Of a stretch of DNA of 30,789 bases, positions 21,135 through 30,720 are shown piece by piece. The stretch is from positions 1 through 30,789 of the IMG/VR virus record IMGVR_UViG_3300030106_000042, one strand, 5' to 3'. The notes below the pieces were generated by a model that was given only the letters and a program-made list of their open reading frames with translations, was not told the origin of the DNA and did not search any database. Origin of the DNA: a virus. Each line of letters opens with the position of its first letter. Within the stretch, counting starts at the first letter, position 1. The position numbers and the translations under genes were made by a program.

Positions 21135-21544
21135 TAAATATTATCAAGGTTGATGTCGCAGAACATTGGACACGAGCATCTGTAATGTTAGCTGATGCTA
21201 TAAATTTAAGTAACGGTAGGCATACACTAGAAACAACCTACAACAACTTAAAAAAAGGAGTTATGAGATTGTACGCAGTTTATTTTAAAGAAAAATTAAA
21301 AAGTTATTTCGTAACTCAAATCACCATTTATCCTGCAAAAAGTGTTTATGGAATTATTTTTTGTGGTGGTAAAGAGGTAATAAGACATATAAAAAAAATA
21401 GAAACTTTTTTTAAAAATGAAGCAGTTCTTAATGGCTGTAGAGGATTAGAAATTATTGGAAGAAGTGGTTGGGAGAAAGTTATTGATAATATGCCCTCTC
21501 TAGACTTTGAAGCAAAAGGTGTGTTTTATGAAATGGATACTTAA
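21131..21544 (+). CDS. GNAT-like phage protein of the ejection cluster
   Basis: A 137-residue mixed alpha/beta protein starting inside the upstream stop (ATGA). RLYAVYFKEKLKSYFVTQIT and VYGIIFCGGKEVIRHIKKIE are consecutive strands. GCRGLEIIGRSGWEKVIDNM near the C-terminus is a motif I recognise from small podovirus proteins coded among internal virion genes; these have a GNAT-like acetyltransferase fold but no demonstrated activity. The canonical acetyl-CoA loop (R/Q-x-x-G-x-G/A) is not clear here, so enzymatic function is doubtful. Position suggests an assembly or virion role, comparable in location to the small gene before the P22 ejection proteins. Confidence 0.5.
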   Translation: MINIIKVDVAEHWTRASVMLADAINLSNGRHTLETTYNNLKKGVMRLYAVYFKEKLKSYFVTQITIYPAKSVYGIIFCGGKEVIRHIKKIETFFKNEAVLNGCRGLEIIGRSGWEKVIDNMPSLDFEAKGVFYEMDT

Positions 21545-22613
21545 ACTATTACCAAACAAAATAAAAGTTTGGTTGTACAAATGTTTATATGATGACATAG
21601 CTGAAAAAGGAGAATATGAAGATACAGAACTAGCTCACGTTAATCCTTATGAAGTTAAAATATTAAAAGAGATTGGTGGATCTGGTAGATTAAATAAATC
21701 TACTGGATTAAAAGGTTACTTTGGTGGTGGTGGATCTCCTGCTCCTGCTCCCTCTGGTGGATCTGGTAGACAAGAAACTATATCTAGAGAAGCACCAGAG
21801 ATTGAAGCTAGAAAGTTAGCTCTTTACGATCAAGCTATTAATTTAGCTACTGAGCCTATGCAAGTTCCAGAGTATAAAGTAGCAGGTCCTTCTCCACTAG
21901 AAACTCAAGCATTTCAACAGGCAGGTCAAACAGGTATTGGTGCTGTTCCAGTACAAGCTGGTATAGGTGCAACATTGGGTGCAGGTCAAACAGCAATGAC
22001 AGATTTAACTCAACAAGGGGGTATGATTGACAGTTTTATGAACCCTTATCAAAGGTATGTTATTGATGAAATCAATAGGCAAAGTCAAATACAATCTAAT
22101 CAACAAGCAGCAGAAGCTGTAGCATCAGGAGCTTTTGGTGGTGGTAGAGAAGGAGTTCAAAGAGCTGAACAAGAAAGATTAAGATTAGGATTGATTGGTC
22201 AAGCACAAGCTGAAGGATTTAAAAGTGCATTAGGTGCTGCTGAAAGACAAAGACAATTTCAAACTGAGGCACAATTAAACCAAGCAGCTCAATTGTCAGC
22301 GTTAGGACAAACACAACAGACTATGCAACAGCGTGATATACAACAGCAACTACAAGGAGGGCAGTTACAAAGAGATATTGCTCAAAAAGGCTTAGAGGCA
22401 CAAAGAGCCACAGAAGTTGCTAGACAAGCTGAACCATTTCAAAGAGTAGAATTTGCAAAAGGTATTATGACTGCCTTACCAACAACAGCATCACAGATTA
22501 CTGCAACGACAGGACCTGGTGCTAATCCATTAGCACAAGCAGCAGGAGCTGGTATAGGAGCATATGCAGCATATAATTTATTAGCACCAACTGGTGCAGT
22601 TAAACAGAGTTAA
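21528..22613 (+). CDS. Internal virion / ejection protein with Gln-Ala coiled coil
   Basis: The start chosen is ATG 21528; TTG 21507 would add seven residues, but AAGGTG lies suitably before the ATG. The gene overlaps the previous one by 17 bases. The 361-residue product has a short basic-hydrophobic N-terminus (MKWILKLLPNKIKVWLYKCL), a Gly/Pro/Ser linker, and a long Gln/Ala-rich helical body. MIDSFMNPYQRYVIDEINRQ and EAVASGAFGGGREGVQRAEQ (about 170-215) are signature blocks of phage DNA-transfer proteins I recognise from marine podoviruses. The C-terminus is Gly/Ala-rich and hydrophobic (GIGAYAAYNLL), possibly inserting into membrane during entry. Confidence 0.6.
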   Translation: MKWILKLLPNKIKVWLYKCLYDDIAEKGEYEDTELAHVNPYEVKILKEIGGSGRLNKSTGLKGYFGGGGSPAPAPSGGSGRQETISREAPEIEARKLALYDQAINLATEPMQVPEYKVAGPSPLETQAFQQAGQTGIGAVPVQAGIGATLGAGQTAMTDLTQQGGMIDSFMNPYQRYVIDEINRQSQIQSNQQAAEAVASGAFGGGREGVQRAEQERLRLGLIGQAQAEGFKSALGAAERQRQFQTEAQLNQAAQLSALGQTQQTMQQRDIQQQLQGGQLQRDIAQKGLEAQRATEVARQAEPFQRVEFAKGIMTALPTTASQITATTGPGANPLAQAAGAGIGAYAAYNLLAPTGAVKQS

Positions 22614-22616
22614 GAT

Positions 22617-24398
22617 ATGGCAATAGAAAATACAAACATATTAAATGCACCTGCTAATCAAGATCTACTAAAAAATAGATTGATTTCTGATGAGCAAAAA
22701 ATTGTTGATCAACAACCTAAAGAAGTTGCACCTGATGAAAAAACAATAACACCAGAAGTAGTTACTTCTGGCTCAACAACCACGCAACCTACATTTAGTA
22801 AAAATGAGAGAATATCCTTAACTCTTTTACCTCTTGCTAGTGCTTTATTACAAGGTAAAAGATCTGGAAGTGGTAGTTTATTAGGAGATACACTTGCAAG
22901 TCTTGGTACAGGACTAGCTGGTACTACAGACGTTGCTTTAAAAATAAAACAGTTGGAAGCAGCTGATAGAACAAAAACTGGAACGTCTAGAAAATCTTAT
23001 AGAATACAACCTAACTTCAAAGGTAAAGTTCAAGTAGGTGGAAAAGAATATACAGCAGCAGATAACTTTAAATTTAATTTTACTGCTGATGAAGTCAATT
23101 CTTACCCACAAGGAATATTTGAAGAATCTACAAAAAGCGACACAGCAGATAAAACTGTCAAAATTGATATTAGTGAAGAGTTTGATTTAGGAGATGGTAG
23201 AAAACTGCAAGTAGGAGAACAAACTGTACCTATGAGTATTTATAATCAAATTGTTGCAAGTAAACCTAGTATATTAGCAACTACGAAAGATGATGCAGAT
23301 AGTAGTGTAGATGTATTTACTACAAAAGATGCTACTATTGGAGGAGTATTTTTCAAAGCTGGTACTAATAGAATGACTAATGAGCAAATTGTTGAAGCAC
23401 AAAAAATACCTGGTTTATTTGGAAAAGCTCCTAAAGAGTTTGCACCTACTTCTTTTGATAAACAGAAAAAAAGAGTAACTGATATTTTAGATAAAGTTCA
23501 AGTTTACGCAAAAGATAATAATATAGATATTAGAAATGATATAGATGAAAATATTTTTGACCAATTATCAGATAAAGATATTTTTGATTTACAGTTATAC
23601 ATAGCAGACTTAGCTAGACCTCAAATAGAAAAATATGTTGATGAAAGAGGTAACACAATAACTAGAGAAAGAAAAAGAGCTGATGTATTATCTGCTTATA
23701 AAAATGCTTTTGGTGATGCAAGGTATAAACAATTAATTAATAGGATTATTTTAGGTAAAGAAGGAGATGATTCTTTTGAAGCTAATTTAAAAAAACTAGA
23801 AGATGGTAGTGAAGTTGATTATGATAAAATCGCATCTGGTTTAGTTTCTAAAACTGATGAAATTGCAAGACAAGCTAAACCTTTAGCTAAAGGAGAAGCA
23901 GAGTCTATTGCTAAATCTCGTTCTGCTTTGACTGCATTGACTTCTGCAAGTGAAGTTTTATTTGACGCAAACGGAGAAATAAGAAGAGATATGTTAATAA
24001 CTCCTGCACAATTTTTAACACAAAAAGGTAGAGAAAAACAAAAATATGTTAGAGCAATAGAACAAGCTGTTGAGGTATTAATCAGAGTGCGTTCAGGTGC
24101 TGCTGTGCCAGAACAAGAATTTCAAAGATACAAAAAAATGTACACACCAAATGTATTTGATACATCAGAAGTTGCAAGACTTAAAATGAACGCAATAGTA
24201 AATGAATTTGGAACTATGATTGCTCTACTACAGGATGGAAGAGGACAAGATTTATTGAAAGGTTTTGAACAAGATAAAGATGGTAATATAACACAGTTTA
24301 AATTTTTAAACCCAGATTATAAAGATGTTGAATTTGATGATGATCAATATTTTAAAAATCAAGCATCAAAACAAAAAAATGAGAAATTTGTAAGATGA
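22617..24398 (+). CDS. Internal virion protein with RSGAAVPEQEF motif
   Basis: A 593-residue, largely helical protein. The N-terminal 60 residues are a low-complexity acidic/Thr segment. A short Leu/Ala/Gly stretch follows (LTLLPLASALLQGKRSGSGS), then a charged region with small beta modules (FKGKVQVGGKEYTAADNF; DGRKLQVGEQTVP). The C-terminal helical domain carries LIRVRSGAAVPEQEFQRYKK and VARLKMNAIVNEFGTMIALL, a block recurrent in internal virion proteins of marine phages. No hydrolase motif was found. Its stop overlaps the start of the next gene (ATGA). The pair looks like the large ejectosome proteins of this phage. Confidence 0.6.
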   Translation: MAIENTNILNAPANQDLLKNRLISDEQKIVDQQPKEVAPDEKTITPEVVTSGSTTTQPTFSKNERISLTLLPLASALLQGKRSGSGSLLGDTLASLGTGLAGTTDVALKIKQLEAADRTKTGTSRKSYRIQPNFKGKVQVGGKEYTAADNFKFNFTADEVNSYPQGIFEESTKSDTADKTVKIDISEEFDLGDGRKLQVGEQTVPMSIYNQIVASKPSILATTKDDADSSVDVFTTKDATIGGVFFKAGTNRMTNEQIVEAQKIPGLFGKAPKEFAPTSFDKQKKRVTDILDKVQVYAKDNNIDIRNDIDENIFDQLSDKDIFDLQLYIADLARPQIEKYVDERGNTITRERKRADVLSAYKNAFGDARYKQLINRIILGKEGDDSFEANLKKLEDGSEVDYDKIASGLVSKTDEIARQAKPLAKGEAESIAKSRSALTALTSASEVLFDANGEIRRDMLITPAQFLTQKGREKQKYVRAIEQAVEVLIRVRSGAAVPEQEFQRYKKMYTPNVFDTSEVARLKMNAIVNEFGTMIALLQDGRGQDLLKGFEQDKDGNITQFKFLNPDYKDVEFDDDQYFKNQASKQKNEKFVR

Positions 24399-26767
24399 CT
24401 TTTTTAAAAAATAAAGGATTGTATGTAGGTAAAGAACCTGAAATGCAAGATAATGGTAAAACTGTATCTTTTGACAAAGACACAGGAGCAGACCTAAAAG
24501 TCAGAGCTATTGTAGGTAATGAAGAAAATAGAGAAAGAAGATTAGCCTTAATTAAACAATACTATCCTGATGCGATAGGTTTATTTGAAGATGGTCCAGA
24601 AACTAAGGATGCCTATAGAAATTGGGCAAAAGCAAATAACATTAGTGAAGACAATTTTGTATTTACCAGGCTAGATGAAGATGGAAATGAAATACAAACT
24701 TTATACAATCCAGAAGGACTTGTACCAGATTTAGGGGATATAGCGTCTATAGGTAGAGACATAGTTAGCACTTTAGCCTATCCTGTGGGTGCTGCTTTTG
24801 GAGTGCCTACAGCTGCACCTACTGGAGGTACTAGTGTTTTAGTAGGAGGAGCATTGGCTGCTGAAGGAGCTGGTCAAGCATATGATAGATTGATTGACTT
24901 TTTAGCAAAAGAATATGTAAGTAGAGGCACCGTTACTAAAAATACAATAGATACTTTAGTTAGAATAGGATTTGATATTACAGGCTCTGGTATACTAGAT
25001 AAAGTAGCAGATGTTGCAAAAAACATAAGAGTAAAAGATACAGTACAAAAAGTTTTAGGTGTTACTACACCAGAAGCTAAAGCATCTAAAGAGGTATTAA
25101 CTAAAGCTAAGAAATTAGGTATAGAAGTTCCTACTTTAGGGCAAGTTGTAGACAGTAAATTTTTACAGGCATTAGAAAAAAGAATAGCAATGAAACCAGG
25201 TGCTGTAAATGTTTACGCTGAGAAAATGAAAGAGTATCAAAACCAAATGGCAAAAGCACTTGTAGATTTGTCAGAAAAATATGGTAAACCTGTAGGCACA
25301 GGAGAAGAAATAGGTTTTTTTATACATAAGAAAGCTCAAGACAGAATAGCACAAACAGAAGTAGAACTTAATAAATTATACAATGCTGCATCAGAGGCTT
25401 TGCCTGTAAACGCTAGGTCTAACTTAAGTAATGTTAAAGAATTGTATGAAGACTTATTAAACCAACAAGAAAAGACTAAAGATAAGGCTAGAGATAAAGT
25501 TATAACAGAAATAAAATCTATACTTGATTTAAGTGAAAAAGCTGTTGGTAGAAGAGGACCTATGCAACAGGGTTATACAGCTCAAGATTTATTAGACCAA
25601 AGAAGTATTGTGTTAAGAAATATAAGAGCAGGTGATTCACCACTTAAAGGAGACTACACAAAATCTGAAGTGCCTTTTCTTAAAAGATTACAAACTGCTT
25701 TATTTAACGATACTGAAGAGCTTGTAAAAAATTTTGGTGGTGAAGAGGCTTTTGATAAATTAAGAAAAGCACAAGACTACAGAGCTACAGTACAAGATGA
25801 AGTATATTCTTTAACTAATAAAATAGAACAAAGAATGAAACAAAAGGCAGAAAATGTTTTCAAATTTGCCATAGATGGCACTGCAAGTGGATCTAAAAGA
25901 ATAAAAGAAATATACGATAATGTATTAGATGAAGAAGGTAAAAAAGATTTAACTGCAAGTTTAGTAAGAAGAATGGGTTTAAAAACTCCTGATGGTGGAG
26001 AGGGTTCAGATTGGACTGTAGGAAAGTTTTTAAAAAATTACAACAACTATTCTAAAGAAGCAAAAAATGTAATTTTTGGTAATAAAGAATTAAGAGATAA
26101 TTTGAACACTATAGTTGAAATAGCTAATCGTTCTATGGATGTAGAACAGTTTGCTAATCCTTCAAAAACAGGTTATGAAACATCCTCTGTTCTTATGCCT
26201 TTGTTAAGTGTTATGGGAGCAACTGGAGCATACTCAGCAGGAGGAAGTAAAGTGGTTGCAGGTATTGTTGGTTCTGGTATTTATATGTCTCCAAGAGCTG
26301 CTTTAACCTTAATAAGTAGTCCTAAATTTACAACTTGGTTATTAGACACTTCTAAAAAAGCTGATAAAAATCCTAATATTCTTGCACAATCAATTGGTAA
26401 TTTAGCTGCAAGTGCTGTAGAAAAAAATGTAGATCCTTCATATGGTGAAGCTGTAGATGAGTATATTAATACTTTACTTTTTCAAGGTCAGACAGAAGAG
26501 ATGTCACAAACCGAAACAAAAGATGTTCAAACAATGTCTCAAGCACAGCCACCAATAGAAACTCCACAACAAAAAGTGGGTAATGTTAATGTAACATCTC
26601 CAAGAATAAATATAGATCCGACCACGTCTCAACCATCACGACAGATGGCTTCTCTCCCAAGTTCACCGTCTGTCGGTGGTGGTATCACTAATGTTGGAAA
26701 TAAACAACAGTTTGGGGGTTTATTCCCTACCGACAATATTGGTAAACTAATAGCAGAAAAAGCGTGA
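24395..26767 (+). CDS. Large internal virion / ejection protein
   Basis: A 790-residue helical protein. After an N-terminal domain (about 1-110) comes a Gly/Ala-rich hydrophobic segment (about 118-160: YPVGAAFGVPTAAPTGG, VLVGGALAAEGAGQAY), then a long charged helical body (about 220-600). A second hydrophobic segment follows at about 610-650 (VLMPLLSVMGATGAYSAGG, VVAGIVGSGIYMS). A disordered Gln/Pro/Ser tail ends in KQQFGGLFPTDNIGKLIAEK. That tail form is one I know from other marine phage virion proteins. Two membrane-prone segments within a soluble body are characteristic of ejection proteins that build a trans-envelope channel. It overlaps its neighbours as ATGA and GTGA. Confidence 0.6.
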   Translation: MTFLKNKGLYVGKEPEMQDNGKTVSFDKDTGADLKVRAIVGNEENRERRLALIKQYYPDAIGLFEDGPETKDAYRNWAKANNISEDNFVFTRLDEDGNEIQTLYNPEGLVPDLGDIASIGRDIVSTLAYPVGAAFGVPTAAPTGGTSVLVGGALAAEGAGQAYDRLIDFLAKEYVSRGTVTKNTIDTLVRIGFDITGSGILDKVADVAKNIRVKDTVQKVLGVTTPEAKASKEVLTKAKKLGIEVPTLGQVVDSKFLQALEKRIAMKPGAVNVYAEKMKEYQNQMAKALVDLSEKYGKPVGTGEEIGFFIHKKAQDRIAQTEVELNKLYNAASEALPVNARSNLSNVKELYEDLLNQQEKTKDKARDKVITEIKSILDLSEKAVGRRGPMQQGYTAQDLLDQRSIVLRNIRAGDSPLKGDYTKSEVPFLKRLQTALFNDTEELVKNFGGEEAFDKLRKAQDYRATVQDEVYSLTNKIEQRMKQKAENVFKFAIDGTASGSKRIKEIYDNVLDEEGKKDLTASLVRRMGLKTPDGGEGSDWTVGKFLKNYNNYSKEAKNVIFGNKELRDNLNTIVEIANRSMDVEQFANPSKTGYETSSVLMPLLSVMGATGAYSAGGSKVVAGIVGSGIYMSPRAALTLISSPKFTTWLLDTSKKADKNPNILAQSIGNLAASAVEKNVDPSYGEAVDEYINTLLFQGQTEEMSQTETKDVQTMSQAQPPIETPQQKVGNVNVTSPRINIDPTTSQPSRQMASLPSSPSVGGGITNVGNKQQFGGLFPTDNIGKLIAEKA

Positions 26768-26961
26768 CAAATAGTATGAAAACATTAGCACCATATATAG
26801 TGATAATCGTTACAGGTTTAGTAACTTGGGGTAGTTTCTCTGCTCGACTAGATGAGGTAGAAAAGAAAGCTGATAACATTGCAAAGATACAGCAAGATAT
26901 AGCTGTAATAAAACAAGAGATAGTATGGATGAAATCTTTTCTTATTAATATGGATAAATAG
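26764..26961 (+). CDS. Small membrane-anchored coiled-coil protein (holin/spanin-like)
   Basis: The start could be GTG 26764, which overlaps the upstream stop as GTGA (65 residues), or ATG 26776 (61 residues). The product has one N-terminal membrane helix (LAPYIVIIVTGLVTWGSFSA) followed by a coiled coil with heptad hydrophobics (DEVEKKADNIAKIQQDIAVI). One membrane segment plus a coiled coil fits XhlA-like haemolysin/holin helpers and inner-membrane spanins alike. The M15 peptidase at 3656 is the only wall enzyme in the window and lies far away, so a lysis role is only a suggestion. A small structural membrane protein is the alternative. Confidence 0.5.
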   Translation: MTNSMKTLAPYIVIIVTGLVTWGSFSARLDEVEKKADNIAKIQQDIAVIKQEIVWMKSFLINMDK

Positions 26962-26975
26962 GAAGTGATAGAACA

Positions 26976-29900
26976 TTGCAAAATGAAGTTGACAATACTG
27001 GTATAAAAGCGATAGAAGAACAAGATCTAAACACCGTAGTAGCAAATTTCAACGAACAAAATAAAGTCTCTGCATTTCCACAATTTACAGATGAGGCTAA
27101 AAAAACTAGAGGTATTGATGAGTTTAAAAATCTTAAAAAAGGTTTTAAAAAGGCTTTACCATATATAGGACAATTAGGTTTAGATTTAGTACCTGGTTCT
27201 GGTATAACAGAAATATTTGGTAAGCAACCAGACATAGTTGAAGGTGGTCAGAGACCTTCATTTGCAGGTCAAGTTGAAAGAACTACAGAATTAGCTAAAG
27301 AAGGTAAAACTACTGAAGCTGTGGTTAGTGGTGTTGACACAGCACTAACAGGAGTAGCAGGAGTTGGTGAAGGTATTATGGTCGCTGGAGCTATGACTGG
27401 TCCTCTTGCTCCTTTACTTGTGGGTGCAGGTTTTGCAATTAAAGGATTGGCAAAGGGTGGTAAATTAATTTTACAATCTACAAAAACTGGTAAAAAAATA
27501 CTAGCTAATTATGAGGGTAACAAAAATGAAGGTTTTAATGTTACTGATTTAGAAATACCAAAAGATGTTGAGCCAGACCCAGACATACAAACTTTAGAAG
27601 ATACTATAGATGTACCCACAACAAAAACAGATGACACCGATACAGAAGTTGCTATACCAGAATTAGCAAAGGACCTTAATACTACTGAAGCTATTACAGG
27701 CTATGTAGTAGCTCCAAACAAATTAGATAGAGATCAGTTAGTCGCTAAAGTAGAGAACGACCCAAAAGTAAAAATTAAAACAGATAAATATTTAGAAGAG
27801 CAAGGTGTAAGTGGAGACACAGTTCCTATTTACAGACTTATAAATGTAGAAGATAAAGTTAAAAGAAGATTGGGAGACCCTTTTCCAGAAGTTCTTAAAA
27901 AAGCAGAAATAGGTAATGAGAGTATTATATCTGGCTCACTAACTCCTAAGGCTAATATAAAAACTTATGATTTCTTTGAACCTAAAGTAGGTGTGAATAC
28001 CACCACTGAACTTGTTAGATATGATGTGCCTAGAGATAGAATTAAAATAGCAATGGGTGGTTTTAAAAATGATATTAAACAAAATGTAAATAAAAAACTT
28101 AAAGAAAAAGGTTTTGGTCAGGAAAAAATATCTGGATTAAAAACAGTAACTAATCCAAGTAAAACAGCTAAAGAATTAATAGATATGCAAGATGAAATAA
28201 TAGCTGATGTTACTGGGTTAGAAAAAACAGTATTGAATAAAGGACCTTCATTTGGTTTGTCTGATGATGTCAATGCAGCAAGAAATATAATAAACGGTAA
28301 AATTAAAACAGTAGAAGATTATAAAAATTTTAAAGGTCAAAGTTATTTTGCTTTGGATAGAGATGAGGCGAGAGGTTTATCAAATCAAGAATTTGAAAAA
28401 GCAAATAATATAGCATTAGAAAAGGAAGCTAACAAAATTACAGACTTTTATGGTTTACCAAGGTTAGGTACAACTAAACCAGATGAAGGTATAAAAGCTA
28501 TAGAGCAAAAAGATGTTGATACAAGTTATAGAGTTCAACACCAAGCAAAAGGACCAATGGATGAAAACCCAATAAGATTAGATAATTTAACAAAAGATGT
28601 AAATGGAGAACAAGCTGGTTATCCTGATGATTTTTATACAACAAAAGGTAAGCAGATTTATGCTCCTGGTCCTAAATTTAAAGATGATGAATATGGAATA
28701 GCTAACAATGAAAGTTATAATATTATTACAAAAGCAAAAAATAATCCAGATATGGAAGTTACTATTTATAGAGCTGTTCCTAACGAAGATAATATAACAA
28801 CAATAAATCAAGGAGATTTTGTAACTTTGAGTAAAAAATATGCAGAGTTACATGGTGCTAGTGGTTATGGACCTATGGGTGATGATGCTGGAAAAATATT
28901 AAAAATGAAAGTCAAAGTTAAAGATTTGTATTGGGATGGAAATGATGTAAATGAGTTTGGTTATTTTCCTCAAAATAAGACAGATGAAGGTATAAAGAAA
29001 ATAGACACAGAAAATAAAGGGTTAGGTTATCATAAAAATCCATTTAAAACTTCTGTGCAATTTTTTAATGATGTAGTAGAGGGTAAGGCTAAACCACTAA
29101 AACAATATGAGTATATAATAGATGTAGGCAAAAGCACTAATGAATTTAGTCCTTACAATAATAGTGTTATAAATATATTAGATAGTAAAACTAAAAACTT
29201 TGCTAATCATATTAACACAAGTATACCTACATTTAAGGAAGCACAAATAGCCACGATACAGGCAGCAAGTGCTGTACTACCGAAAAACGCAAAGATATTA
29301 GATATAGGTCCTACTGAAGGTGGGTTTATGAATACCTTAGGTAAAGTAAGAGAAGATATACAAGGATTAGGAATAGAACCATCTGAAAAAGCTAACAGAG
29401 TATTTGGTATTATTAGTGAACCTAATATGAAAACAGTTAAAAAGGCTTTCTCTGGTTTTAAATCAGAATATAATCAAAAAGCATTTAAAGATGATGTTGA
29501 TGCCGATATAGATATTACTGTTTTTGATAATGATACTATACCTGACAAATCTTTAGATATGGTATCTGAAAAATTTACCTTTCAATTTATAGATAATGAA
29601 AGAGCATCAAAGATTGATGTAATCAGCAAAAAACTAAAAGATGATGGCTTTGCTATATTTGAAGAAAAGTTTGTTCCTAATGTAAAAAATAAAGAGTACG
29701 AAGCTAACGAAGCAAAGAAAGATAAATTTAAAAGCAACTATTATAAGACAGAAGATATGACAAAGAAAAAAGAAGAAGTCTTGTTAGGTATGGAAAAAAA
29801 TATGGTAGATGCTGAAGATTTTGAAGAGATACTAAAAGGTAAATTTAAACACGTTGTTCAGTATTGGGACTCTGGTAACTTCTCTGGCTATATAGTTTCT

Positions 29901-30083
29901 AATAGTGAAGAAAAGGTTAAAAGTTTTTTAAATAATATGCCAAGTTTAAAAAGTGAATACTCTAATGTAAAACCTAATAGAGTCGTTCAAGGTATGACAA
30001 CCAAAACAGAAAAAGTAGAGAAAAAAGCACTTGGAGGATTTGTAGATAGAAACACCTATGATTGGGTGTATATAGATGGTTGA
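26976..30083 (+). CDS. Polyvalent protein: predicted ADP-ribosyltransferase plus methyltransferase
   Basis: A 1035-residue multidomain protein starting at TTG 26976 after AGGAAG; the next Met is far inside. Residues 1-170 are virion-protein-like with a hydrophobic stretch (about 115-155: GVAGVGEGIMVAGAMTGPLA). Residues about 515-668 match an ART-like domain found in phage polyvalent proteins: YRVQHQAKGPMDENPIRLDN, TIYRAVPNE with Arg599, GDFVTLSKKYAELHG with Thr617/Ser619, and WDGNDVNEFGYFP with Glu660, giving an R-S/T-E triad. Residues about 690-960 form a class I methyltransferase fold with KILDIGPTEGGFMNTLG (Asp776, motif I) and LKDDGFAIFEEKFV. A GIKAIE-type linker appears three times at module edges. 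It is probably packaged and injected with the DNA, but delivery is inferred. Confidence 0.65.
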   Translation: MQNEVDNTGIKAIEEQDLNTVVANFNEQNKVSAFPQFTDEAKKTRGIDEFKNLKKGFKKALPYIGQLGLDLVPGSGITEIFGKQPDIVEGGQRPSFAGQVERTTELAKEGKTTEAVVSGVDTALTGVAGVGEGIMVAGAMTGPLAPLLVGAGFAIKGLAKGGKLILQSTKTGKKILANYEGNKNEGFNVTDLEIPKDVEPDPDIQTLEDTIDVPTTKTDDTDTEVAIPELAKDLNTTEAITGYVVAPNKLDRDQLVAKVENDPKVKIKTDKYLEEQGVSGDTVPIYRLINVEDKVKRRLGDPFPEVLKKAEIGNESIISGSLTPKANIKTYDFFEPKVGVNTTTELVRYDVPRDRIKIAMGGFKNDIKQNVNKKLKEKGFGQEKISGLKTVTNPSKTAKELIDMQDEIIADVTGLEKTVLNKGPSFGLSDDVNAARNIINGKIKTVEDYKNFKGQSYFALDRDEARGLSNQEFEKANNIALEKEANKITDFYGLPRLGTTKPDEGIKAIEQKDVDTSYRVQHQAKGPMDENPIRLDNLTKDVNGEQAGYPDDFYTTKGKQIYAPGPKFKDDEYGIANNESYNIITKAKNNPDMEVTIYRAVPNEDNITTINQGDFVTLSKKYAELHGASGYGPMGDDAGKILKMKVKVKDLYWDGNDVNEFGYFPQNKTDEGIKKIDTENKGLGYHKNPFKTSVQFFNDVVEGKAKPLKQYEYIIDVGKSTNEFSPYNNSVINILDSKTKNFANHINTSIPTFKEAQIATIQAASAVLPKNAKILDIGPTEGGFMNTLGKVREDIQGLGIEPSEKANRVFGIISEPNMKTVKKAFSGFKSEYNQKAFKDDVDADIDITVFDNDTIPDKSLDMVSEKFTFQFIDNERASKIDVISKKLKDDGFAIFEEKFVPNVKNKEYEANEAKKDKFKSNYYKTEDMTKKKEEVLLGMEKNMVDAEDFEEILKGKFKHVVQYWDSGNFSGYIVSNSEEKVKSFLNNMPSLKSEYSNVKPNRVVQGMTTKTEKVEKKALGGFVDRNTYDWVYIDG

Positions 30084-30720
30084 GCCAATATCCACTGCTC
30101 TCGCTGGATTGGCATTAGTTAAAAAAAGTGTAGAGTTCATAAAATCCAACATAAGCACAGCTAAAGACATAGGTGATATTATCAACCACGTTGATGCTGC
30201 AATGAATGGTGAACAACAATTAATTAAAGAAAGAGATAGAAAAGGAGATGACCCATTCGCTGTAGAGAACGTGGCGAAATCTGTTTTAGATGCCAGAATC
30301 GCTAGAGAAAACCTGCAAGAGATAAAACTGCTGATTGAGATGAGGTTCCCTGGTGCTTGGGGTCAAATACTAGCAGAAAGAAAAAGAAGAATAGAGGCAA
30401 AGAAACAAGCGATAAAAGAAGCCAGAGCAAAGAAGATAAAAAAAATGCAAGAGATAGAGGAGTATGTTAAGTATGGTTTTATAGCTCTTGCAACAGTTTT
30501 ATTTATTGCAGTATCTATAGGTATCACTATAAAGTTTTTTGTATCAGTAACTAATAAAGTATATGCACATAATTTAGAATATGATGATGGAAGTTGCCGA
30601 CTATATGAGCCAAAATATTTTTTAATATGTATGTCTGAGGGTCGTGATTATGCCGACACAGAGCTATATTTAGATTACAAAAAAAATCGTGGTAACTGGA
30701 TTGTAGATGACGAAGAATAA
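30076..30720 (+). CDS. Conserved phage membrane protein with charged helices
   Basis: A 214-residue protein starting eight bases before the end of the polyvalent gene. The N-terminal part (TALAGLALVKKSVEFIKSNI, STAKDIGDIINHVDAA) and the FPGAWGQILAERKRRIEAKK helix are a combination I recognise from conserved marine phage proteins of unknown role. A long basic helix (about 108-138) leads into one clear membrane segment (FIALATVLFIAVSIGITIKF, about 146-165). After it comes a short domain with two cysteines (GSCRLYEPKYFLICMSEGRD). The layout predicts a large cytoplasmic helical part and a small outside domain held by a disulphide. Holin-associated or superinfection functions are possible, unproven. 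Confidence 0.55.
   Translation: MVEPISTALAGLALVKKSVEFIKSNISTAKDIGDIINHVDAAMNGEQQLIKERDRKGDDPFAVENVAKSVLDARIARENLQEIKLLIEMRFPGAWGQILAERKRRIEAKKQAIKEARAKKIKKMQEIEEYVKYGFIALATVLFIAVSIGITIKFFVSVTNKVYAHNLEYDDGSCRLYEPKYFLICMSEGRDYADTELYLDYKKNRGNWIVDDEE

Follow-up and report, generated by a model that had tools for sequence, protein, structure and literature searches.

A modular late gene of an HTVC023P-type pelagiphage with two predicted ADP-ribosyltransferase-like domains and a CmoA-like methyltransferase between constant ends

Polyvalent proteins of phages and conjugative elements join unrelated enzyme domains in one polypeptide, are encoded in late-gene contexts near virion genes and contain domains that are shuffled between giant and small proteins; their published ADP-ribosyltransferases (ARTs) are of the H-Y-D type and belong to the Tox-ART-HYD2 clade, and R-S-E ARTs of the Alt type were stated to be absent from genuine polyvalent proteins (Iyer et al. 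2017, PMC5512222). The window analysed here, the whole 30,789-nucleotide stretch of viral DNA, contains a gene for a 1035-residue protein that is similar in each of these aspects of organization and combines domains of such disparate activity as ART-like and methyltransferase ones. It departs from polyvalent proteins in its ARTs, which read R287-S319-Q405xE407 and R599-T617-E660 instead of H-Y-D, a difference that concerns the ART clade and not the architecture; in addition, no peptidase domain was recognised, and cassette edges and linker repeats could be mapped at base level. T4 Alt, a virion-borne ADP-ribosyltransferase, resembles it in its R-S-E-type active site and its virion-associated position (packaging is presumed for our protein), but profile searches detected no sequence similarity between the two, and here two ART-like domains are accompanied by a methyltransferase in a pelagiphage-type podovirus. 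Bacterial polymorphic toxins also present a constant leader with exchangeable effector blocks. However, whereas the toxin end varies in those proteins, the exchanged blocks are central here and followed by a constant C-terminal tail; moreover, no immunity gene was seen, and delivery would be by a phage and not by a secretion system.

Genomic setting and domain order

Its late genes assign the phage to the HTVC023P type of pelagiphages: the capsid protein is 82% identical to that of HTVC023P, and eight further late-gene matches occur in the same order. The modular gene and its neighbours are the following (positions in the window):

21507..22613, + strand: putative DNA-ejection/internal virion gene, upstream (PHROG 4287 'DNA ejection protein', E 3.5e-9; 59% to an HTVC023P gene)
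22617..24398, + strand: late gene, 593 aa, upstream, positional analogue of HTVC023P gp82 (by position only)
24395..26767, + strand: 790-aa coiled-coil gene, upstream, positional analogue of HTVC023P gp83 (PHROG 36512, E 7e-25, and position)
26976..30083, + strand: modular gene, 1035 aa (open frame; modular or full-length relatives L001, L002, L010, L011, L016 and L056 in the same slot)
30076..30720, + strand: constant flank gene, downstream, 214 aa, one membrane segment, overlapping the end of the 1035-aa gene

The modular gene directly follows the putative ejection/internal-virion genes in the late operon, and its slot is that of the last large late gene before a convergent helicase. Upstream, the 593-aa gene gave no sequence match to HTVC023P gp82; PHROG 36512 is a family of unknown function, and gp83 is a putative ejection/internal virion protein in HTVC023P. 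Downstream, a gene of the same size as the 214-aa one occurs after the slot in L001, L002, L010, L011 and L016, and in L056 a DNA identity of 91% spans both the tail of the modular gene and this neighbour.

The 1035-aa frame is a genuine gene, with a TTG start preceded by AGGAAG. Its product comprises a leader, ART-B, ART1, a methyltransferase and a tail, in this order, with the motifs YRAVP (residues 598-602), VTLSKKYA (616-623), WDGNDVNEFGY (653-663) and LDIGPTEGG (775-783). No match above cut-off was found for the whole protein in Pfam, NCBIfam or PADLOC, nor any match with phmmer against the PDB. Residues 511-669 match the C-terminal part of the PHROG 2579 profile (E 2.8e-27) and residues 740-976 match PHROG 4752 'tRNA methyltransferase' (E 1.1e-16), so that the ART and methyltransferase patterns stand above chance. 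These matches, together with residue conservation, uphold the claim of the sequence-only reading that an R-T-E domain precedes a class I methyltransferase in a single protein; the gene lies in the late operon and adjoins ejection-type genes, and the polyvalent-protein architecture that the same reading proposed is likewise borne out. The ART-like domain that it recognised (R599/T617/E660) is present, but there are two such domains, not one.

Predicted enzymatic domains

The domains and their main residues are located as follows:

27816..28259, + strand: core of module B, ART-B, residues 281-428 (whole module about 220-511; defined from 15 relatives and an AlphaFold model)
27834..27836, + strand: R287 of ART-B, invariant in 15/15
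27930..27932, + strand: S319 of ART-B, in I-S-G-S, STS-like, invariant in 15/15
28188..28196, + strand: Q405-x-E407 of ART-B (E407 15/15; Q405 14/15, E in L056)
28515..28982, + strand: ART1 cassette domain, residues 514-669 (PHROG 2579, AlphaFold, PDB matches, L027 DNA)
28770..28772, + strand: R599 of ART1, 20/20, on model strand 594-601
28824..28826, + strand: T617 of ART1, 18/20, on model strand 615-617
28953..28955, + strand: E660 of ART1, 17/20, R in ART2, directly before strand 661-663
29043..29975, + strand: CmoA-like class I methyltransferase, residues 690-1000 (PHROG 4752 and CmoA profile matches)
29298..29324, + strand: motif I, LDIGPTEGG, residues 775-783 (D and E-G conserved in 22/22 relatives)
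29769..29771, + strand: K932, at the position of CmoA Arg199 (register from the HMMER alignment)

ART-B was compared with 15 relatives of 26-95% identity, all of which also keep its YDVP motif. In the AlphaFold model (mean pLDDT 61, core about 70-89), R287 lies on strand 282-292, S319 on 317-321 and E407 on 407-411, an arrangement that, with strands taken from the model, corresponds to the R on strand 1, S/STS on strand 2 and [E/Q]xE on strand 5 of R-S-E enzymes. This R-S-QxE pattern is more classical than the R-T-E of ART1. The PDB folds nearest to this part are ARTs, at weak scores (Foldseek best E 0.2, Z about 4, for a model of pLDDT 61), with ParT as the top Foldseek match, also weak. The only profile match, to a fragment of Legionella SetA (E 0.005, profile positions 159-241), was set aside because the ART-B triad lies outside the aligned part, and ART1 and ART-B did not match each other significantly when their profiles were compared. 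ART-B is best described as a predicted R-S-E-type ADP-ribosyltransferase-like domain, presumably catalytic.

Among 20 diverse relatives of ART1, G655 and D614 are conserved in all, like R599. The sequence-only reading had listed S619 alongside R599, T617 and E660; the latter three stand, but S619 is conserved in only 8/20 relatives and therefore falls outside the signature. The three relatives without E660 all carry R at this position and belong to one subfamily, 'ART2', so that, by the refuting condition of the sequence-only reading (loss of the triad and motif I in close homologues), the claim survives for ART1, with the exception of ART2. Simple decay was rejected as an explanation for the absence of E660, R being conserved within the subfamily. 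One ART2 relative, L001, contains an in-frame TAG. For ART1 itself, dN/dS against L027 is 0.75, on very few changes. Counts and model (pLDDT 85) together place R, T and E as on ART strands, and of the 25 PDB matches reaching Z >= 2, the best of them at 4.5, all or nearly all have ART-superfamily folds, the absence of other folds from this VIA list not being counted as evidence. VIA Z values stay below 5 for both ART1 and ART-B, the best Foldseek E of ART1 is a weak 0.94, and its profile search against the PDB returned chance-level matches only (superantigen, Rb-like proteins). Searches of bacterial genomes with ART1 and with the methyltransferase found no relatives at the sensitivity of the tool. 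It is improbable that residues 514-669 form some other small alpha/beta domain, which would leave ART-B and the methyltransferase as the only enzymes: such a domain would fit the lack of a Pfam or NCBIfam family, the Foldseek score, the missing [E/Q]xE and the unconserved S619, but not the confident model, the expected order and strands of R, T and E, or the nature of the PDB matches. We infer that ART1 is an R-T-E ADP-ribosyltransferase-like domain and probably catalytic. It shows homology to PHROG 2579 'ParB C-terminal domain', a family common in mycobacteriophages, over the C-terminal ~130 residues of that family, but the ParB part is absent from our protein; the family takes its name from the other half, which some members have, and this name misleads when applied to a domain like ART1.

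By its conserved motifs and profile matches, the methyltransferase agrees with the Rossmann core, motif I and acidic post-I residue of class I SAM-dependent enzymes. All 22 relatives retain D in motif I, together with E, F, Q and F in HExMxFQF and Y, W, G, N and F in YWDSGNFKG, and dN/dS against L001 is 0.06, indicating purifying selection (0.06-0.33 across this domain and ART-B). A profile of the 22 relatives matches CmoA/YecO (1im8, E 2e-8) as well as other class I enzymes. CmoA is the nearest family, its fold and motifs aligning over nearly the full length, although here the domain is part of a multidomain protein; the CmoA family model TIGR00740 did not match the 1035-aa protein itself and matched its L002 relative at E 4e-6, with 26.6 bits against a curated cut-off of 193.3. 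In CmoA, Arg199 is the sole residue contacting the carboxylate (PMC4482062); it is replaced by K932 here, and among the 22 relatives the position holds K (5), E (5), Q (4), A (3), S (2) or others, but never R, so the domain is probably not a carboxy-SAM synthase. An active phage-encoded CmoA with a DNA carboxymethyltransferase partner does exist (PMC12783734). Nevertheless, given the missing Arg199 and a score far under the cut-off, we rejected a true CmoA, and consider it very unlikely that the domain makes carboxy-SAM or acts as a SAM drain blunting SAM-dependent defences. A DNA methyltransferase was also rejected, motif IV ([DNS]PP[YFW]) being absent here and in 21/22 aligned members, with the L125 match lying in a variable stretch.

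Constant ends and exchanged cassettes

The conserved ends of the gene and its linker repeats are the following:

26976..27632, + strand: module A, constant leader, residues 1-219, conserved in all slot members
29991..30080, + strand: module E, constant C-terminal tail (GGFVDRNTYDWVYIDG), identity 65-100% in all slot members
28472..28504, + strand: linker repeat 1, DEGIKAIE, direct repeat at the left edge of the ART1 cassette
28973..29005, + strand: linker repeat 2, DEGIKKID, right edge of the ART1 cassette (L001 homology resumes at residue 670)
27000..27026, + strand: third, diverged linker copy, GIKAIEEQD, near the gene start (85% over 27 nt against 28488-28514)

The leader is conserved at 46-88% in blocks, both in all slot members and in the smaller proteins L003-L005, L012, L013 and L027, which in another phage type are encoded between connector and tail genes; it was searched for in named phages and not found. 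Several leader-bearing members show a sub-threshold match to a Pfam RTX N-terminal family (E 2e-4 to 0.05). The sequence-only reading had described a virion-like hydrophobic N-terminus. There is indeed a single Gly/Ala-rich hydrophobic segment at about 133-155, of modest hydrophobicity (top Kyte-Doolittle mean 1.57 in a 19-residue window, 133-151), but the N-terminal half also holds ART-B with its better R-S-QxE pattern. The tail is kept even in slot members without the methyltransferase (L010, L011). Position and constancy suggest that leader and tail may be the part serving packaging or ejection.

Comparison of same-slot relatives shows cassette exchange: these proteins retain ~219 residues at the start and ~25 at the end, and the middle is replaced by a different ART or by an unrelated block of ~620 aa, the methyltransferase being present in some and absent from others. 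L001 is homologous over residues 1-513 (95% DNA identity) and 670-1035 (97%) with a different ART in between; conversely, L027 has only residues 502-667 in common (94% DNA identity), and L002, L010, L011 and L016 contain an unrelated block in the middle of the slot. The succession of ART and methyltransferase, which had been highlighted as a special unit, is therefore not fixed, each block being swapped or lost in close relatives. Homology at the DNA level breaks at the repeated DEGIKxI linkers, repeat 1 marking the start or end of homology to L001, L002 and L027. Repeats 1 and 2 form a 33-nt direct repeat (26/33 identical) with a 16-nt exact core at 28480, such that a 16-bp exact repeat flanks the 501-bp ART cassette on both sides; the length of this exact repeat is not rare by itself, being reached by 10/300 codon shuffles. 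We infer that the linkers may drive the exchange. A second slot of related phages, between terminase and portal, has the same design and the same methyltransferase. The L001 and L008 copies are interrupted.

Possible role during infection

The SAR11 bacteria that pelagiphages infect are more common in the surface ocean than any others, and to our knowledge the takeover of these cells by the phages is largely unexplained. Ribosome-emptied cells have been seen in pelagiphage infections, their cause not being known (PMC11066056). We consider it reasonably likely that the modular protein is a polyvalent effector with exchangeable enzyme cassettes, delivered by the virion, packaging and catalysis both being presumed. 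The protein would be packaged and delivered together with the DNA, carrying between leader and tail the ART-like domains 281-428 and 514-669 and the CmoA-like methyltransferase 690-1000. Once inside the cell, the ARTs would attach ADP-ribose, taken from NAD+, to macromolecules of the host, and the methyltransferase would methylate a substrate other than DNA, such as RNA, a protein or a small molecule; these actions may favour host takeover. Homologous recombination via the repeated in-frame linkers would diversify this cargo, and could thereby place different effectors in the same slot of different phages. It may also be, and we propose it tentatively, that HTVC023P-type phages maintain a dedicated slot whose invariable leader and tail enclose injected enzymes swapped by recombination at the repeated linkers, in this case two R-S/T-E ARTs and a CmoA-like methyltransferase.

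Delivery is suggested by the place of the gene in the late operon of an HTVC023P-type phage, where putative ejection genes immediately precede it, and by the leader homologues within the connector-tail cluster of a second phage type. The same enzymes might instead be produced late in infection without being packaged, as a host-modifying or superinfection-excluding protein whose gene happens to close the late operon; the position before a convergent helicase is a common place for accessory genes, but these leader homologues, and a constant leader with varying cargo, are more readily reconciled with a delivery function than with a free enzyme, and we regard this alternative as unlikely. The size and position of the protein resemble those of ejection proteins, and it could conceivably be a structural or ejection protein with degenerate, non-catalytic spacers in place of enzymes, as the ART2 relatives without E660 and the interrupted copies might suggest. 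This is, however, highly doubtful given the near-invariance of catalytic-type residues in diverged relatives (ART-B 15/15, ART1 17-20/20, methyltransferase 22/22) and the low dN/dS of the methyltransferase and ART-B.

A main role in counter-defence, like that of the P1 Dar proteins, would agree with the link between polyvalent proteins and counter-restriction (PMC5512222). Compared with host takeover, it appears somewhat unlikely, since the cargo lacks the DNA-methyltransferase motif typical of DarB and known defence systems occur in few SAR11 genomes (19/172, all restriction-modification; PMC11066056), SAR11 being itself the presumed host of this phage.

If virion delivery and cassette exchange operate as proposed, the slot would be a phage counterpart of polymorphic toxins, with injected enzymes that vary from phage to phage. 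The analysis adds R-S/T-E ARTs to polyvalent-type proteins, locates cassette exchange at specific linker repeats and sets right the 'ParB C-terminal domain' label, which is misleading for the ART-like domain that bears it in many phage genomes. A protein that is probably delivered by the virion, in which catalytic residues can be identified and of which cassette variants occur in nature, would provide concrete candidates for the host takeover of SAR11 cells by pelagiphages.

Genomic context of the late gene

The window, a virus record of 30,789 bases, belongs to a phage related to Pelagibacter phage HTVC023P: its capsid protein shares 82% identity with that of HTVC023P, and a run of its late genes has HTVC023P counterparts in the same order, with 48-70% identity. 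From such relatives we infer a SAR11 host; a second capsid relative (79% identity) has a recorded gammaproteobacterial host. The gene studied here is the last large late gene.

Features of the late-gene region
21507-22613: gene matching a PHROG named 'DNA ejection protein' (E 3.5e-9)
Between this gene and the target: two large late genes, analogues of HTVC023P gp82-gp83 by position only, for which no sequence match to gp82-gp83 was found
26776-26961: 61-aa ORF, HTVC023P gp84 analogue by position, with a coiled coil and an N-terminal membrane segment
26976-30083 (+): target gene, 1035 aa
30076-30720: 214-aa gene, its start overlapped by the target gene

Two ART-like domains and a CmoA-type methyltransferase

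The sequence-only reading had proposed a single ADP-ribosyltransferase (ART)-like domain, here called ART1, with a R599...T617/S619...E660 pattern. Among 20 diverse relatives, R599 (20/20), T617 (18/20) and E660 (17/20) are well conserved, but S619 is not (8/20). The C-terminal part of PHROG 2579 matches residues 511-669 (E 2.8e-27). In the predicted model (mean pLDDT 85), R599 lies on strand 594-601 and T617 on strand 615-617; E660 comes immediately before strand 661-663. Although Foldseek retrieved no significant match in the PDB (top, the ART Vis, E 0.94) and a second structural alignment did not exceed Z 4.5, all or nearly all of the 25 entries listed by the latter have ART-superfamily folds, including KptA/Tpt1, TreX, TreTu, Vis, cholera toxin A, PARP16, Tse6, ExoS and CDTa; CNFy is also listed, and we take the domain matched there to be ART-like. 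We read ART1 as probably a compact, divergent ART. In BFVD, the best-matching viral models are of phage proteins, none of them named as an ART. The PHROG 2579 name, 'ParB C-terminal domain', has been passed on, in many mycobacteriophage records, to small proteins made of an ART1-type domain alone (e.g., Phaux gp130).

Module B (about residues 220-511), which the sequence-only reading treated as an N-terminal region, appears to hold a second ART-like domain, ART-B. Using its alignment as query yielded additional relatives, and R287, S319, E407 and a YDVP motif are invariant in 15 sequences with identity down to 26%; at position 405, 14 of them have Q and the remaining one has E. At the sequence level, these R, S and [Q/E]xE residues represent the classical R-S-E signature, on which the predicted assignment places most weight, structure scores being weak. 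In a mediocre model (mean pLDDT 61), R287, S319 and E407 lie on successive core strands; the ART toxin ParT takes the top three places in Foldseek, with E values no better than 0.2, and the low-scoring matches of a second structural alignment over residues 281-428 are mostly ARTs (among them ParT, EcPltA, diphtheria-type, RES, pertussis, cholera and Arr). ART-B is under purifying selection (dN/dS 0.14 and 0.33 against the related loci L002 and L003, respectively).

For the methyltransferase proposed downstream of the ART (METHYLTRANSFERASE), PHROG 4752 matches residues 740-976 (E 1.1e-16), and a profile of 22 relatives matches CmoA/YecO in the PDB (E 2e-8). TIGR00740 (CmoA) also matches the L002 relative along positions 19-237 of 239 (E 4e-6, far under its cut-off). 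In CmoA, Arg199 is the sole residue contacting the carboxylate of carboxy-SAM (PMC4482062); K932 occupies this position in the target, and none of the 22 relatives has an arginine there (the E. coli sequence used for CmoA numbering was checked against F133 and R199 in PMC4482062 and the letters of the PDB alignment). The domain is therefore predicted to act as a CmoA-type class I SAM enzyme, but probably not as a carboxy-SAM synthase. No DNA amino-methyltransferase motif was found in this domain of the window, and its substrate may be RNA, protein or a small molecule. It evolves under purifying selection (dN/dS 0.06 against L001).

Cassette exchange in the slot

Among relatives that occupy this slot, the leader (residues 1-219) and the last ~25 residues are constant, with a variable stretch between them.

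Architectures of slot alleles (A, leader; B, module with ART-B; ART2, ART1-related subfamily; L2mid, unrelated block; MT, methyltransferase; E, tail)
Window: A-B-ART1-MT-E
L001: A-B-ART2-MT-E
L002: A-B-L2mid-MT-E
L010 and L011: A-B-L2mid-E
L016: A-L2mid-MT-E
L056: A-(diverged B)-ART2-E

Phages of a second type, whose tail gene set differs, also have the leader, followed by B alone (L003-L005), by ART1 (L027) or by other ends (L012, L013). Cassettes have been exchanged among these loci: L001 DNA is 95% identical to the window over residues 1-513 and 97% from 670 onward, with no match in between, and L027 shares only residues 502-667 (94%), its leader being 70% identical. Both ART1 cassette edges fall within a linker encoding DEGIKxI, whose copies at 28472-28504 and 28973-29005 form a direct repeat of 33 nt, 26/33 identical, with a 16-nt exact core; a third, diverged copy lies close to the gene start. 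By length, an exact 16-nt repeat is not unusual for a gene of this kind, being reached in 10 of 300 codon shuffles; the telling feature is its location exactly at the cassette edges. The linkers may drive the exchange. Relatives come mostly from uncultured contigs, several being fragments, and locus counts do not equal phage counts because some loci represent one contig (e.g., L002, L007 and L015).

L2mid (L002:6978-8846, ~620 aa), which takes the place of ART1 in several alleles, has 18 related loci, large proteins among them, and no recognised family was found for it. The counterpart of the 1149-aa L011 protein is split inside L2mid into 790 and 341 aa (L008:6986-10430), and a single in-frame TAG interrupts the ART2 cassette of L001 (7551-8146); these interruptions may be real or assembly errors. 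Intact ART2 copies (L050, L054, L055, L056) have R at the position of E660. The post-leader cargo of L012 (2027-3277; about residues 195-416, 'IIYHTTDTEKGIEG...LGFHLGET...YIVFDKSAIKKL') resembles by eye an H-Y-D-type ART; Pfam, PHROG and NCBIfam gave no match.

The methyltransferase domain occurs in at least 80 further loci. In phages whose portals share 52-56% identity with the DSL-LC04, HTVC027P and HTVC023P portals, the terminase-portal interval (L068-L112) forms a second polymorphic slot. It encodes 477-812-aa proteins in which a hydrophobic leader and a tail (KKRRGGPISIPKIDML), both constant, enclose a variable middle and, after it, the methyltransferase. Some middles look R-S-E ART-like by eye (L080, L089, L096) and others contain a HEGRHR block (L091, L092). 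On diverse contigs (L114-L142), a CmoA-like domain also forms part of phage proteins of 1100-2959 aa. The leader-variable middle-tail design is consequently not confined to one gene.

Predicted role during infection

Most likely, with moderate confidence, the protein is a polyvalent effector that the virion delivers and that acts early on targets in the host. It would be packaged in the virion and ejected into the host, where its domains would use NAD+ and SAM to modify host targets to the benefit of the phage. Multi-enzyme polyvalent proteins with late-gene context and variable architectures have been published (PMC5512222); the target resembles them in architecture but, whereas their ART clade is of the H-Y-D type, its ART-like domains lie outside that clade. 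Host takeover seems likelier than counter-defence, given that the methyltransferase does not appear to be of DNA type and that known defence systems are present in few genomes of SAR11, the presumed host (19 of 172; PMC11066056). Ribosome-depleted cells have been described in the same study, and a link between them and this protein is offered only as a suggestion.
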